Shown here piece after piece: positions 22,300 through 27,636 of a stretch of 64,000 nucleotides of DNA. Position numbers and translations under genes: made by a program. Position 1 is the stretch's first letter; each line of letters opens with the position of its first letter. Source of the DNA: Paenibacillus silvisoli (GTDB lineage: Bacteria; Bacillota; Bacilli; Paenibacillales; Paenibacillaceae); the NCBI RefSeq assembly GCF_030866765.1, contig NZ_CP133017.1, positions 3,640,001 through 3,704,000 of the forward strand, read 5' to 3'. The notes under the pieces were generated by a model. It had not been told where the DNA came from. It did no database searches and saw nothing but the letters and a program-made list of their open reading frames with translations.

Positions 22300-23037
22300 C
22301 TATTCGAAGCTCATCGCGGATTCGGCGCTGATAAAGGTGCCGATATGCTTGCCGTCGCAGACGTCCGCCATCGAGCCGGGCTCGTCGAAATTAAACACAT
22401 GGATCGGCAGATTGTAATCCCGCGCCAGCAGAAAAGCCGATTGATCCATTATGCGCAGATCCTGCTTAATGACATCATTGTAATGAAGCGAGCTGAATTT
22501 TCTGGCCTCTTTGTTCTTCTTCGGGTCGGACTCATACACGCCGTCCACCCCCTGCTTCGCCACGAGCAGCGCGTCGCAATTCACTTCAATGGCCCGCTGT
22601 ACCGACGGATAATCGGTTGTGACGAACGGCTGTCCGTTGCCTCCGGCGAAGATGACGATGTACCCTTTTTCCAAATGGTGAATGGCCCGCAGCCGAATGT
22701 ATGGCTCCGCGACCGAAGCGAGCGGAATCGCGGTCATGACCCTCACCTCGCTGCCGCACTTCGACTTGAGCACGCCTCTGAGCATCAAGCTGTTGACGAC
22801 CGTCGCGAGCGTCCCGATATTGTCGGCTTCGGCCCGTTCAATGCCCCAGCCTTCCGCCATATTGCCCCGAAAAATATTGCCCCCGCCAATGACAAGCGAC
22901 ACTTCCACGCCCTTGTTCACTACGGACAAAATCTCGTTCGCGATATGATCGAGCCGCTCCGGATCGAAACCAAACTCGCTGTCGCCCGCTACCGCACCGC
23001 CGCTTAATTTGATCAGAATACGCTTGTAATTGCTCAA
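22300..23037 (-). CDS. pyrH: UMP kinase (PyrH-like), stand-alone paralogue
   Basis: A 245-residue amino-acid-kinase-fold protein. YKRILIKLSGGAVAGDSEFGF is at the N-terminus, IGGGNIFRGNMAEGWGIERAEADNIG at about 52-77, and VTTDYPSVQRAIEVNCDALLVAKQGVDGVY at about 150-180. It would phosphorylate UMP to UDP. Bacterial pyrH normally lies in rpsB-tsf-pyrH-frr; here it is alone, starts with TTG, and departs from the usual TTD-(S/T)-A-A triad (YPS here). It is therefore probably a second copy or a relative with altered regulation. Confidence 0.8.
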   Translation of the reverse strand: MSNYKRILIKLSGGAVAGDSEFGFDPERLDHIANEILSVVNKGVEVSLVIGGGNIFRGNMAEGWGIERAEADNIGTLATVVNSLMLRGVLKSKCGSEVRVMTAIPLASVAEPYIRLRAIHHLEKGYIVIFAGGNGQPFVTTDYPSVQRAIEVNCDALLVAKQGVDGVYESDPKKNKEARKFSSLHYNDVIKQDLRIMDQSAFLLARDYNLPIHVFNFDEPGSMADVCDGKHIGTFISAESAMSFE

Positions 23038-23301: not shown

Positions 23302-24321
23302 ATGCCTTTATTTCTGCATTCCCTTTCATTAAAGCTGTTGAGGCTCAAAAACTCGGCCATTATCGTCGTATTCCTGTCCTTCCTGCTCATCGTCTCCACG
23401 ATCGCCTACGAGCTCGAACCGGACACCTTCGGCAGCTGGTTCAACGCGCTTTACTGGGTATTAACGACGATGTCGACCGTCGGCTACGGCGACTTCTACG
23501 CCCATACGGCGGCAGGCAAGGCGCTCACGATGGTCATCTATGTATTCGGCATCGGCTTGCTCAGCTTAATCATCGGTAAAATCATCGATTCGGTCGCGCA
23601 GTTTCATCGACAAAGGAGGGCCGGCAAATTGACCTATTCCGGCAGGCAGCATCTCGTCTTTATCAATTGGAGCAAGAAAGCGAAGTATGCCATCGAAGAA
23701 CTGCTGACGATCTCGCCGGCAGCGCAAATCGTTCTTATCGACGAGACGGATCAGCATCCTTACGAGCATCATCAGGTGCATTTTGTGAGCGGCGACCCGA
23801 GCTCCGGCGATATTTTGGTCAAAGCGGGCATTTCGAACGCGAAATCGGCCATTATTTTCGCGGATAACCGGATCGACGAGCCTTCCCTTGCGGACGGCAA
23901 ATCGCTGCTTATCGTTTCCAGCATCGAAAGCCTTGCGCCTCAGGTCCATACGACCGTGGAAATTATGCAGGAGAAGCATATTCCGAACTTCAAGCATGCG
24001 AACGTCAATGAATTCGTGCTCTCCCACGACGCGGTCGCGCGGCTGGCCGTTCGCTCGGCGTTGAACGACGGCAGCGCCGAAATTTTCTCCCAACTGCTAA
24101 GCCGCCAGCATGGCGCGGATGTGTTCCCCGTCCCCGTATCGCCGCAGTGGCGAACATACGAGGACGCCTTCCTCTCCCTTCTGAAGCAAGGCGCAACGCT
24201 CATCTCGGATCGCGGCGACATGTCCATCAATACGAAGCTGCAGGAGCCGATACCGCAGCATGCCAAGCTCTTCATGGTTTGCGATGTCGAGATCTATAAG
24301 AAAATCACGAAGGGAGTTTAA
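23302..24321 (+). CDS. Two-helix potassium channel with RCK/TrkA-N domain (YugO/MthK type)
   Basis: A 339-residue protein. Two membrane helices (about 16-36 and 72-95) flank a pore loop with the canonical selectivity filter TVGYGD (59-64). The cytoplasmic part (about 110-250) is a Rossmann-type RCK domain with VFINWSKKAKYAIEELL and IVLIDETD. The start at 23302 is chosen because GGGAAGGAGGTG lies 9 bp upstream. It heads a five-gene operon with a glutathionylspermidine-synthase-like ligase and a DUF350 protein, so gating may be tied to that modification system (inference). Confidence 0.88.
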   Translation: MPLFLHSLSLKLLRLKNSAIIVVFLSFLLIVSTIAYELEPDTFGSWFNALYWVLTTMSTVGYGDFYAHTAAGKALTMVIYVFGIGLLSLIIGKIIDSVAQFHRQRRAGKLTYSGRQHLVFINWSKKAKYAIEELLTISPAAQIVLIDETDQHPYEHHQVHFVSGDPSSGDILVKAGISNAKSAIIFADNRIDEPSLADGKSLLIVSSIESLAPQVHTTVEIMQEKHIPNFKHANVNEFVLSHDAVARLAVRSALNDGSAEIFSQLLSRQHGADVFPVPVSPQWRTYEDAFLSLLKQGATLISDRGDMSINTKLQEPIPQHAKLFMVCDVEIYKKITKGV

Positions 24322-24327
24322 CCCCGC

Positions 24328-24804
24328 ATGCACACGATTTCCTACCTGGAATGGGATGAAACCGGACGTCGCGTACGTCGGACGCTCAAGCAGTACACGA
24401 TCGGTACGGATGAAATTTTCGTCAGAAAGCTTGTCAATGCCACGGTCATCCAAAATTTGCTGCTGCACCACAGCTCGCATGAATCGGAAGCGAGCGGCCA
24501 GCATTTGATCTATGCAGCTCCTTTTCAGAGCAGCGATCTGGATGGGTACGGAACCGAAATGAAGGCCGCGCTGCTGGAACGCTGCGACCGGTCGGTATTT
24601 CTGGAAGCGGAATTCCTTTACTGGAACGGCATCCGGTTCGAATTAGGCGAAGCGCTGACGCGTACGCCGGATGCGCAGGCAATCGCCATGCTGCTGCTCG
24701 ATCATTATTTAGTGAAGCAAGATCGCACTTATGAATCGCTCTATACCGTGCTCGATGACGACCGCAACAAAGTTCTATTCTACTTGAAGGAGGTTCATAT
24801 CTAG
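24328..24804 (+). CDS. Unknown 158-residue soluble protein of the channel/ligase operon
   Basis: Not recognised. It has no signal peptide or membrane segment and shows mixed alpha/beta character, with an Asp/Glu-rich C-terminal half (LLDHYLVKQDRTYESLYTVLDDDRN). It begins 6 bp after the channel stop, with AGGGAG upstream, and the next gene starts immediately after its stop, so it belongs to the operon. In the enterobacterial yjf operon other DUF proteins hold similar positions; direct homology is not shown here. Confidence 0.7.
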   Translation: MHTISYLEWDETGRRVRRTLKQYTIGTDEIFVRKLVNATVIQNLLLHHSSHESEASGQHLIYAAPFQSSDLDGYGTEMKAALLERCDRSVFLEAEFLYWNGIRFELGEALTRTPDAQAIAMLLLDHYLVKQDRTYESLYTVLDDDRNKVLFYLKEVHI

Positions 24805-25149
24805 ATGAAAGAGGACCAAGACTCCGCCACTAACCGGATTAACGCGCACATGCACGCGCAGAGCTCCCCGTCGCAGCAGTCGTCCGGTCATCCGGCGAAG
24901 CTGCTCAAGTTCGCGCTTCTACTGGCTGTGCCGGTCGCCCTTAGCGGCTGCAATACGACCAGCTACGGCTGCGATCCGAATTATGAGGATTGCGACGATT
25001 ATAGCGGCGGCGGCGGTTCAAGCGGCGTGTATTACTCCGGGAGCGGTTCTTCGACGAAGAGCCCGTCCTACAACTCCGGCTCCGGCAGCAGCGGCTCAAG
25101 CTCCTTCAAGGGCTTCGGCAGCAGCGGCAGCCACAGCAGCGGAGGTTAA
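24805..25149 (+). CDS. Ser/Gly-rich lipoprotein, YgiB/YjfM-like (DUF1190-like)
   Basis: A 114-residue protein. A polar 31-residue N-terminal arm precedes a hydrophobic segment and lipobox ALSGC, with the lipidated Cys at 49. After it comes CDPNYEDCDDYSGGGG and a 50-residue Ser/Gly-rich tail that ends KGFGSSGSHSSGG. E. coli YgiB and YjfM, next to ATP-grasp ligases YgiC/YjfC, also carry Gly/Ser-rich tails with GFG. The C-terminal Gly-Gly could be the carboxyl end modified by the ligase encoded next (inference). AAGGAGG lies at the end of the previous gene. Confidence 0.7.
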   Translation: MKEDQDSATNRINAHMHAQSSPSQQSSGHPAKLLKFALLLAVPVALSGCNTTSYGCDPNYEDCDDYSGGGGSSGVYYSGSGSSTKSPSYNSGSGSSGSSSFKGFGSSGSHSSGG

Positions 25150-25152
25150 GCC

Positions 25153-26466
25153 GTGGTACGGATCGTACAGCTCGATGCTCGGCACGAGGACGTGTTCAAA
25201 GGCGAGATTGCGCGCCATATCCCTTACCACCGCATGAACGGCAAACAATACTGCCTCCCCGCGCTTACGTTGTATGCGTCCGATCAAGCGGCTGAGCTGG
25301 CAGAAGCATCCGAAGCCGTTGATCGTATTTATTGGAAGGCGCTGCGGTTTGCCCAGCGCGATTTGCCTGACAGCTTCTTGGTCCAGCAGCTCGGCCTCCA
25401 TCCCGCTCTGCTATCAGCCGCCCGGATCGAAGTCCCCTATCACGGGGTATCAAGACAGGATTGGATCGTAAACGGCGAACGCGGTATCAAATGCATCGAA
25501 AACAACACCGATACGCCGACAGGCATTCCGGAAACGGCTTATCTTGCCGCGAAGCTGATCGGCGATTACACGGACTTTGCAGCGGCTTCGTCCGGGATGA
25601 GAAGCACCATCCAGACTGCTTTCGACCGGCTGCTCCGGCATTATGCCGAGCAAGGCTTGGAAGGCCCGGTTGTGTTCTCCAGCTACGGCTGGCATCTCGA
25701 GGATCGAACCAATACGGAGTACCTGATGGAAGCCGTGCACGAGCTTGGCTACGACACCTTGTACGTGCCATTGGAAGAGCTCGAAATCGTGCCCGGAGAC
25801 GGTCTGTACGCGGGCGGACGGCGCATTGCCGTTTTATATCGCCTCTACCCGCTTGAATATTTGGTGCACGATACCGATGAACAAGGGACGGAGCCGATCG
25901 GCGAAGCTCTGCTGGAGCTCGTCGTTCAAGGACGCTTGGGCTTGATCAATCCCGCGCAAAGCATCATTACGCAGAGCAAGGGCTTCATGGCGCTGATCTG
26001 GTCGCTGTACGAGCGCCGGGATCAGACGGAAGCGTTTATCGGCCGGACGCTGTTCGATCCCGAGGATATCGCCGCTATTGAGCGTTATTTGCTTCCGACT
26101 TATTATGAGCCTTCCCTATTCACGCAATCCGAAACGCCTTTCGTTGCCAAAGGCTACTGGGGCCGCGAAGGAAAAGGCACTTCTCTATTCGACGGCGAAG
26201 GCCGTATGGTTGAGGAGGAATGGGGCCATGACGAGTCTGAGCTGGCCGACATTCAAGACTATTACGACCGCCAGCCGAAGGTTTACCAACAGCTATTTCC
26301 GCTGCAAGCGCTCCAAGTGGAAACGGAAGAAGGCGAATTTGATGGCTACCTGCTGACCGGCGCCTACGTGATCGGAGGATGCTATGCCGGCTTGCTGCCT
26401 CGCATCGGCGGCAAAATTACCGGCGATATGGCGTATTATTGTCCCGCGGCTATTACATACCCTTAA
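25153..26466 (+). CDS. Glutathionylspermidine-synthase-like ATP-grasp ligase (YgiC/YjfC type)
   Basis: A 437-residue protein matching the C-terminal ATP-grasp synthetase domain of glutathionylspermidine synthase, without the amidase half. Conserved pieces are IKCIENNTDTPTGIPE (about 112-127), the nucleotide loop FVAKGYWGREGKGTSLF (about 330-346) and YLLTGAYVIGGCYAGLLPRIGGKIT near the end. Such enzymes join a carboxyl group to an amine using ATP. The GTG start is 8 bp after GGAGG, which overlaps the lipoprotein stop codon. The substrate may be the lipoprotein tail or a free peptide; polyamine as the amine donor is inference. Confidence 0.85.
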   Translation: MVRIVQLDARHEDVFKGEIARHIPYHRMNGKQYCLPALTLYASDQAAELAEASEAVDRIYWKALRFAQRDLPDSFLVQQLGLHPALLSAARIEVPYHGVSRQDWIVNGERGIKCIENNTDTPTGIPETAYLAAKLIGDYTDFAAASSGMRSTIQTAFDRLLRHYAEQGLEGPVVFSSYGWHLEDRTNTEYLMEAVHELGYDTLYVPLEELEIVPGDGLYAGGRRIAVLYRLYPLEYLVHDTDEQGTEPIGEALLELVVQGRLGLINPAQSIITQSKGFMALIWSLYERRDQTEAFIGRTLFDPEDIAAIERYLLPTYYEPSLFTQSETPFVAKGYWGREGKGTSLFDGEGRMVEEEWGHDESELADIQDYYDRQPKVYQQLFPLQALQVETEEGEFDGYLLTGAYVIGGCYAGLLPRIGGKITGDMAYYCPAAITYP

Positions 26467-26478
26467 AGGAGGATCAAC

Positions 26479-26883
26479 GTGAATCAATTTGGAAACGATT
26501 TGTTAAACGTAGGCATTGGCATCATCATCTTGCTAGCCGCTCTTGTGGTCGGTTCGTTCGTGTTCAGCAGACTGACGCGGTTCAACGACTGGGCGGAAAT
26601 TCGGAAAGGCAACGAGGCGGCAGGCATCTATATGGGCAGCAAGCTGCTCGGCCTAGGCATCATTATCGCGATGGTTTCGTACAGCTCCCATGACTGGGAA
26701 GCGATGCTCATCTGGTCCGCTGTCGGCATCGTCCTGCTTTGCCTTGTGTATGTGCTGTTCGACTTCCTTACGCCGAAGCTGAACGTATGCGAAGAAATCG
26801 CGAAAGGCAACAAAGCGGTCGCCCAGCTGCTGCGCGCGATTATTCTCGGCTCGTCGATTGTCATCGGCACGTTCTTGATGTAA
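26479..26883 (+). CDS. DUF350 family membrane protein (YjfL-like)
   Basis: A 134-residue protein with four membrane helices in two homologous halves: FNDWAEIRKGNEAAGIYMGSKLLG (about 36-59) and LNVCEEIAKGNKAVAQLLRAII (about 98-119). This duplicated KGN-A pattern is diagnostic of DUF350, which travels with ATP-grasp ligases of the YgiC/YjfC type. Translation starts at GTG, 9 bp after AAAGGAGG. It is the last gene of the operon before a terminator. Its function is unknown. Confidence 0.88.
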   Translation: MNQFGNDLLNVGIGIIILLAALVVGSFVFSRLTRFNDWAEIRKGNEAAGIYMGSKLLGLGIIIAMVSYSSHDWEAMLIWSAVGIVLLCLVYVLFDFLTPKLNVCEEIAKGNKAVAQLLRAIILGSSIVIGTFLM

Positions 26884-26886
26884 AAC

Positions 26887-26928
26887 AAAAAGCCCCTGAA
26901 TCCATCATCGATTCGGGGGCTTCGTTTC
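26887..26928. terminator. Bidirectional intrinsic terminator
   Basis: A 13-bp stem AAGCCCCTGAATC/GATTCGGGGGCTT (one T-G pair) with a 7-nt loop lies between the DUF350 stop and the convergent amidase stop. Confidence 0.82.
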
Positions 26929-26931
26929 GGT

Positions 26932-27636
26932 TTAAGATAGAAAATCGATAATTCCGTTGACGATCGTTTGGGAAACGGTCGTCTGGAACGCATCCGACTG
27001 CATCCGGTCCTCTTCGGCTGCGTTTGAAATATAACCGAGCTCCAGCAGCAGGGCCGGCTTCGTATTATCGCGAAGCACCTGGTAATTGCCTTCCTTCACG
27101 CCGCGGTCCTTCGCGTCGACGCTGCCGGCAAGCGCGCCGTGCATAAGCTCCGCTAGCGGCAAATCCGCCTGGTTGTAATAATACGTCGTCATCCCCGCAA
27201 CCTCATTCGATTCAAACGCATCGTAATGGATGCTGATGAAGAGATCCGCGTTATACTCCTCCGCCATCGCGGCCCGCTGTTCCAAGGTTACGAACTCGTC
27301 CCCTTCCCGGGTCAGGACGACATCCGCTCCCGTCCGGTTCTGCAGCTCCTCGCGTATGCGAAGCACCGTCCGCAGCGTCACTTCCTTCTCGAACGTGCCC
27401 TTCTGCCCGATCGAGCCGGCATCCTTGCCGCCATGTCCGGCGTCCAGCACGATCGTCTTGCCGGCAAGCAGCGGATTGCGCGCTTCGACGGCTGCGCTGC
27501 TCGCGGCCTGCTTGTCCTCTCCCGAGCCGTTCGCCCGATCCTGCGCCTGCAGAATCATGGAAGCGGCAGCAAACACGAGGAGCGCCATGACAGCCACACC
27601 GGACATCGGGCTGCGCTTCTTCCGCTTCCGTTTCAT
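26932..27636 (-). CDS. N-acetylmuramoyl-L-alanine amidase (Amidase_3, CwlD-like size)
   Basis: A 234-residue protein. A membrane anchor or signal (about 12-31) precedes the zinc amidase domain (60-234). The zinc and catalytic residues sit in LDAGHGGKDAGSIG (His about 68), FEKEVTL (Glu about 84), FISIHYDAF (His about 138) and LLLELGYISN (catalytic Glu near 200). It cuts the bond between muramic acid and the stem peptide in peptidoglycan. The ATG has AAGGAGG upstream. The length resembles the sporulation enzyme CwlD, but the assignment to that role is open. Confidence 0.88.
   Translation of the reverse strand: MKRKRKKRSPMSGVAVMALLVFAAASMILQAQDRANGSGEDKQAASSAAVEARNPLLAGKTIVLDAGHGGKDAGSIGQKGTFEKEVTLRTVLRIREELQNRTGADVVLTREGDEFVTLEQRAAMAEEYNADLFISIHYDAFESNEVAGMTTYYYNQADLPLAELMHGALAGSVDAKDRGVKEGNYQVLRDNTKPALLLELGYISNAAEEDRMQSDAFQTTVSQTIVNGIIDFLS

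Follow-up and report, generated by a model that had tools for sequence, protein, structure and literature searches.

A window of 64,000 nucleotides from the genome of Paenibacillus silvisoli (NZ_CP133017.1, positions 3,640,001 to 3,704,000) contains five closely packed genes on the forward strand (23302 to 26883 of the window) for a potassium channel, a small protein of 158 residues, a lipoprotein, a stand-alone ATP-grasp ligase of the GspS type and a DUF350 membrane protein. The best overall explanation of this cluster, to which we give a probability of roughly 0.58, is that the ligase activates the C-terminal glycine of the lipoprotein and joins it to a small amine before the lipoprotein is exported. 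At the level of sequence comparison it is established that the neighbourhood, the Gly-Gly end of the tail and the catalytic residues are conserved, and that the channel depends on the ligase.

The lipoprotein (24805 to 25149, 114 residues) is the predicted substrate. After a hydrophobic stretch it carries the lipobox LSGC, whose Cys49 (24949 to 24951) is the predicted lipidated residue, and two more cysteines and acidic residues follow. The Ser/Gly-rich tail contains a G-F-G motif (25111 to 25119) that is kept in the tails of relatives, and it ends in SSGG, of which Gly113-Gly114 (25141 to 25146) would be the ligation site. This lipoprotein matches no family over the cut-off in Pfam or NCBIfam, and no Pfam match, DUF1190 included, was listed for it at an E-value of 1.

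To judge the tail end we compared 140 loci, window included, from two collections (60 + 79) that are not independent as several genomes occur in both. Loci with a ligase at least 40% identical to that of the window were called type A (92 loci, window included, with several genomes counted twice). The lipoprotein partner was picked by a strict lipobox and by position only, ignoring the tail, and was found in 127 of the 140 loci. Of these ligase-adjacent lipoproteins 124 end in Gly-Gly; after collapsing the 60-residue C-terminal tails 94 distinct tails are left, and 91 of them have this end. The frequency of Gly-Gly at the 29 other tail offsets examined is 0-13%, and 500 rounds of shuffling each tail left on average 3.4 and at most 9 of 94 with this end, compared to the 91 observed. 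A G-[FIYWLMV]-G motif occurs 3 to 26 residues before the end in 93 of the 94 distinct tails, against an average of 14 and at most 24 after shuffling, and 92 of the 94 distinct lipoproteins possess three cysteines, the lipidated one counted, amid acidic residues within the first 40 mature residues. The 13 loci without a strict lipobox partner stand outside the 127 and were inspected by eye, which revealed an open reading frame (ORF) ending in Gly-Gly nearby in 12 (L103, L136-L140, L182, L186, L188, L192, L202 and L219); that of L182 lacks a signal and that of L219 adjoins a second ligase-like ORF.

Two other counts were not retained. A regex-based one was discarded for its too strict ligase pattern, having covered 19 loci only, all 19 with Gly-Gly; a second one via hydrophobic stretches gave 114 out of 121, its seven misses being four wrong picks without a lipobox (L103, L124, L136 and L193) and three true exceptions. 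Early candidate partners had been chosen partly by their Gly/Ser content and are excluded from the quoted counts. Among the greedily called ORFs of at least 100 residues in the window none besides the lipoprotein ends in Gly-Gly. Over the window and the loci 66 out of 1263 distinct ORFs of this kind do, a number that includes the ligase partners and hence gives no background rate.

We further report that the acidic, cysteine-flanked segment directly adjoins the lipidated cysteine in the window (24949 to 25005) and in its relatives. A DxDxDG-like loop, which may represent a divalent-cation site, is present in 19 of 59 type A lipoproteins and in 2 of the 35 others.

The ligase (25153 to 26466, 437 residues, GTG start) matches GSP_synth (PF03738) over residues 25-434 with 7e-41 and 141 bits (cut-off 29.3), and the amidase domain of the bifunctional GspSA was not found in it by Pfam. 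In a single-sequence search of the PDB, YjfC and YgiC of Escherichia coli were the only relatives at an E-value of 1 (7uk6, YjfC, 9.9e-11; 7uk8, 5.3e-6). In the alignment with E. coli Gss/GspS nine positions are identical, namely R316, D318, E330, N332, E391, K498, K533, R538 and R598, which we take to be catalytic or binding residues. Overall identity to Gss/GspS is about 20%, the amidase half is missing, and the SAS of the glutathione site is replaced by TPT in the window ligase as well as in YgiC and YjfC; a DTPT motif is common to these three but not to GspS. A tree was built from 80 ligases, of which 75 were taken from a set of 115 distinct ones and five were added. In it the 75 sequences from Bacillota lie on one side of a branch with support 100/99 and YgiC and YjfC on the other, while the branch of GspS is very long. 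In its sequence relation and the DTPT motif the window ligase agrees with the YgiC/YjfC family, and it may have a peptide-spermidine ligase activity. RefSeq annotates YgiC and YjfC as peptide--spermidine ligase, a name whose likely source is Pederick et al. 2023; the function of the E. coli yjf and ygi sets, regarded as open in the original prediction, is no longer fully so.

The Gly-Gly end was also observed in partners of other protein families. YgiB (DUF1190) of E. coli ends in SMGG and YjfM in HWGG, and each is encoded directly upstream of YgiC or YjfC, respectively. We read 20 genes across three E. coli regions, including four neighbours of the bifunctional gss, and only YgiB and YjfM have this end. 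In the type B loci (ligases 32-34% identical to that of the window) the partner is a transmembrane-anchored protein of 219-284 residues that ends in FGG and overlaps the ligase start in five out of five loci. These loci (L136-L140) follow their own order of small protein, anchored Ser/Gly protein ending in Gly-Gly, ligase, second lipoprotein and DUF350; the second lipoprotein ends in FRGWA(N/K/S) or similar, and a channel is added in L137 and L138.

Of 15 plasmid regions from Pseudomonadota, Actinomycetota, Bacillota and cyanobacteria, nine contain a partner ending in Gly-Gly (Rhizobium, Vibrio, Pseudomonas amygdali, Loktanella, Roseomonas, Arthrobacter, Bacillus amyloliquefaciens, Lactococcus and Jeotgalibacillus). 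The partner lies downstream of the ligase in Loktanella and Roseomonas, and in the Arthrobacter protein a lipobox is absent from the first 45 residues. As a side observation, four plasmids (L267, L268, L269 and L262) combine the ligase with a lipoprotein or Gly-rich protein ending in Gly-Gly, and neither DUF350 nor a channel is annotated nearby in an annotation that is incomplete.

The genome of P. silvisoli (6.73 Mb) has one GSP_synth match and three DUF350 matches, and allows for a comparison within one organism. The second DUF350 cluster (L224:4735-6507, about 4,095,200-4,097,000 of the genome) is free of a ligase and comprises DUF350, DUF4178 and a DUF4247 lipoprotein that ends in SRRR, followed by a major facilitator superfamily protein. 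On this evidence the Gly-Gly end appears to travel with the ligase and not with DUF350. The third DUF350 gene (L223:6254-6673) lies directly downstream of a large gene that by eye resembles MutS2, and no ligase or lipoprotein is called beside it.

The five genes are separated by 6, 0, 3 and 12 bp in gene order, in line with the gaps of 0-12 bp in the original prediction, and Pfam and the sequences bear out the identities given there: a TVGYGD channel with an RCK domain, an unfamiliar protein, a lipoprotein ending in Gly-Gly, a ligase without the amidase half, and DUF350. The absence of this neighbourhood from other Paenibacillaceae had been named as a reason to give up the proposal; we find it conserved there. 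Within the genus 17 of 22 genomes have GSP_synth, as do 211 of 295 in the family sample and 42 of 398 in the phylum sample, 34 of the latter over the cut-off. The close, type A form of the ligase (at least 42% identity to that of the window) occurs in 79 family genomes, P. silvisoli included, and the closest named relative among the fetched loci is that of Paenibacillus sp. CF384, with a 78% identical ligase. On the same strand within 3.6 kb DUF350 is found in 92 of the 92 type A loci and the gene of the 158-residue protein in 90, and the other 48 loci have a same-strand DUF350 in 44 cases. Type C ligases, 29-37% identical to that of the window, occur in Bacillaceae, some Paenibacillaceae and others.

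The 158-residue protein (24328 to 24804) has no evident signal and no Pfam or NCBIfam family over the cut-off. It is a core member of the type A loci with a distant relative in type C loci (96% and 1.5e-9 in a profile comparison of its family with the type C gene). Its model is beta-rich, with a predicted local distance difference test (pLDDT) score of 94.1, and no clear structural relative of the model was found. A comparison by hhalign to YjfK (DUF2491) gave 0.1%, for which a single YjfK sequence was used. The DUF350 protein (26479 to 26883, GTG start) matches PF03994 with 4e-30 and 105 bits (cut-off 26), and its model (pLDDT 86.9) predicts four long helices. Li et al. 2019 reportedly mention DUF350 together with GspS relatives.

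We infer the chemistry and its timing, the amine, the roles of DUF350 and the 158-residue protein, and the effect on the channel as follows. The core unit would consist of the ligase, the lipoprotein, DUF350 and the 158-residue protein. The ligase may activate the C-terminal Gly carboxylate of the lipoprotein in the way GspS activates the glycine of glutathione, and the activated glycine would then be amidated with a small amine, in type A loci most likely spermidine or another polyamine. ATP is found in the cytosol and the tail comes to lie outside, so this step must take place before export, and the 158-residue protein may hold the unexported precursor in the cytosol. The product might be a lipid-anchored protein whose acidic, cysteine-bearing segment sits at the membrane and whose flexible Ser/Gly tail bears a cationic cap. 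This capped lipoprotein could act at the envelope, perhaps together with DUF350, and in some genomes the module may also serve the MthK-like potassium channel. The suggestion that the ligase modifies the lipoprotein, already made in the original prediction, gains support by comparison from the Gly-Gly end in 124 out of 127 loci, the same end in YgiB and YjfM and the conserved GspS residues.

With regard to the amine, AdoMet_dc is matched twice in the genome of P. silvisoli and spermidine synthase with 2.6e-74. Of the 79 type A genomes 78 have an AdoMet_dc match, which in 22 is only weak (about 1e-13) and may represent the other SpeD class.

Several observations weigh against the proposed capping of the lipoprotein. 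The modification is predicted from comparison, and since the tail is exported it would have to take place before export. The residue D610 of GspS is not kept but is Tyr in the window ligase and Arg in YgiC and YjfC. The lipobox partners of three loci (L129, L189 and L195) do not end in Gly-Gly, one locus (L194) showed no partner with this end on inspection by eye, and owing to the kinship among the loci the Gly-Gly counts do not represent independent events. On the plasmids the partner has another end in four out of 15 regions (Asticcacaulis, Azospirillum B510 and two cyanobacteria), and no partner was found in the regions from Photobacterium and Azospirillum TSH58 (two out of 15). Further, 46 of 53 family genomes without an AdoMet_dc match keep the ligase, 45 of these 46 not being type A; in the 21 of the 53 that were tested the best spermidine synthase match was 1.3e-12, and one had none. 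Spermidine is therefore not a home-made amine everywhere, and such genomes could import the amine, make it via a route outside the search, or use something else. The earlier idea of a polyamine thus stays plausible by the kinship to YgiC and YjfC and is weakened by the genomes that lack AdoMet_dc. On the cyanobacterial plasmids (L265 and L266) an exported-looking protein of 376-389 residues upstream of the ligase ends in GGASS or GGSSS. Many genomes of genus g13 and part of those of genus g7 are without AdoMet decarboxylase, and all 20 listed keep both ligase and channel.

A wider reading, which we put forward tentatively and do not expect to hold as a whole, regards Gly-Gly as a general signal of exported proteins, similar to the tail of ubiquitin, that dedicated GspS-type ligases cap with a polyamine. 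It would apply to lipoproteins as well as membrane-anchored proteins of Bacillota and Pseudomonadota and, on the basis of a single locus, of Actinomycetota. Capping before export would then provide the outer face of the membrane with a tethered polycation, which in a subset of bacteria might act on an MthK-like potassium channel.

It is unlikely that Gly-Gly represents a ligation site whose acceptor is the amine of a protein (such as DUF350 or the channel), of a lipid or of the cell wall, in which case the lipoprotein would be conjugated and not capped. The presence of DUF350 near the ligase in every type A locus is compatible with this, as is the ligase being kept in 46 of the 53 genomes without an AdoMet_dc match. 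However, the need of the ligase for cytosolic ATP speaks against acceptors in the wall, the annotation of YgiC and YjfC is that of spermidine ligases, and we know of no GspS relative that uses the amine of a protein.

We consider it improbable that the ligase makes a soluble peptide-amine metabolite like GspS, with the Gly-Gly of the lipoprotein serving protease processing, binding or another purpose. GspS chemistry does act on glutathione, as is known of the family, and the partners with other ends (three among the lipobox partners, four on plasmids) would fit, but the five-gene operon contains neither a small-peptide gene nor a second synthetase, and a partner ending in Gly-Gly accompanies the ligase across different gene orders and protein families.

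The channel (23302 to 24321, 339 residues) has two transmembrane segments and an RCK/TrkA_N domain (Ion_trans_2 7e-18, TrkA_N 3e-8, TVGYGD in the sequence), and its closest solved structure is MthK (3.7e-18). It shares the two-transmembrane pore and the RCK domain with the Ca2+-gated MthK, but is linked to a ligase module. Among the 295 family genomes the ligase is present in 122 of 124 that bear the channel (E-value 1e-20) compared to 89 of 171 others (Fisher 8.6e-22, uncorrected for kinship), and both genes lie within 12 kb in 94 of the 121 channel genomes with places compared. The reverse does not apply, since 89 of the 211 ligase genomes had no channel at this threshold. This indicates that the channel relies on the module to a greater extent than the other way round, that the channel is an optional member, and that gating is at most one output. 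The channel is found in 27 of the 92 type A loci and in 19 of the 48 others, on the same strand in 12 of these. It can lie upstream or immediately downstream, past DUF350 or on the other strand, and at least ten gains or losses on the ligase tree are needed to account for which loci carry it. When 26 type A genomes lacking the channel in the locus were tested, 21 had none at an E-value of 1e-20 and five had it elsewhere in the genome. A change in ion flow, as proposed earlier, is thus weak as a main function and likely as one output. A system that exists to gate the potassium channel, in which the modified lipoprotein would act as blocker or subunit, is nearest to the emphasis of the original prediction. 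It fits the tie of channel genomes to the ligase, often within 12 kb, and the repeated gains or losses in varied positions and strands, but is very unlikely given the 89 of 211 ligase genomes and the 21 of 26 unlinked type A genomes without a channel.

Directly after DUF350 a terminator-like hairpin with a 13-bp stem (26890 to 26922, forward strand) closes the operon. Upstream of the channel that scan gave no sigma-70-like site; its overall numbers of sites were about those of shuffled sequence. By eye, the flanks encode a UMP kinase-like protein (22300 to 23037) and an N-acetylmuramoyl-L-alanine amidase-like protein (26932 to 27636), both on the reverse strand.

Related systems have been described. 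The E. coli ygiB-ygiC and yjfIJKLMC sets have a ligase of the same Pfam family directly after the gene of a lipoprotein ending in Gly-Gly, and yjf includes a DUF350 protein (YjfL). The window lipoprotein, unlike theirs, has no DUF1190 match, the operon has no genes for PspA, DUF2170 or DUF2491, and no profile relation was seen between the 158-residue protein and the single YjfK sequence compared. For the bac operon of Pseudomonas aeruginosa, with DUF2170 and PspA genes, biofilm phenotypes are described (PMC10948618). In Ravi et al. (mSystems 2024, PMC11237479) a third group of PspA-linked operons combines a GspS-like ATP-grasp enzyme, a potassium channel that senses ligands intracellularly, DUF350 and a lipoprotein, as in the window, which in contrast lacks the PspA/CesT dyad, DUF1190 and DUF2491. 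The words glycine, C-terminus and amidation are absent from the main text of that paper, which cites Li et al. 2019 for linkages to AdoMet decarboxylase (PMC11237479). Paenibacillus and related words do not occur in PMC10407285.

A chemical precedent comes from eukaryotic SUMO, for which spermidine is reported on the C-terminal carboxylate (..LGG) with a mass shift of +127.147 Da (PMC12270671). The Gly-Gly carboxylate is alike, but E1 and E2 enzymes are used there and the substrate is not exported.

As the operon kind is already in print (mSystems 2024) and RefSeq names YgiC and YjfC, we do not claim a new kind of operon. The tail rule brings a testable substrate prediction. In a search of open-licence PMC papers we saw none that states the Gly-Gly rule, but Pederick et al. 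2023 could contain it, and no statement on the natural substrate of YgiC or YjfC was found in the texts covered.

The tail rule names one candidate substrate per enzyme, YgiB for YgiC and YjfM for YjfC, together with one residue, and in nearly all loci examined the candidate is the partner gene. If true, this would mean a C-terminal modification of bacterial lipoproteins, and we know of no description of one of such kind. It would also give the DUF350 neighbourhoods a chemistry. For an enzyme family of hitherto unclear natural substrate, the Gly-Gly tail of the lipoprotein is the likely target.

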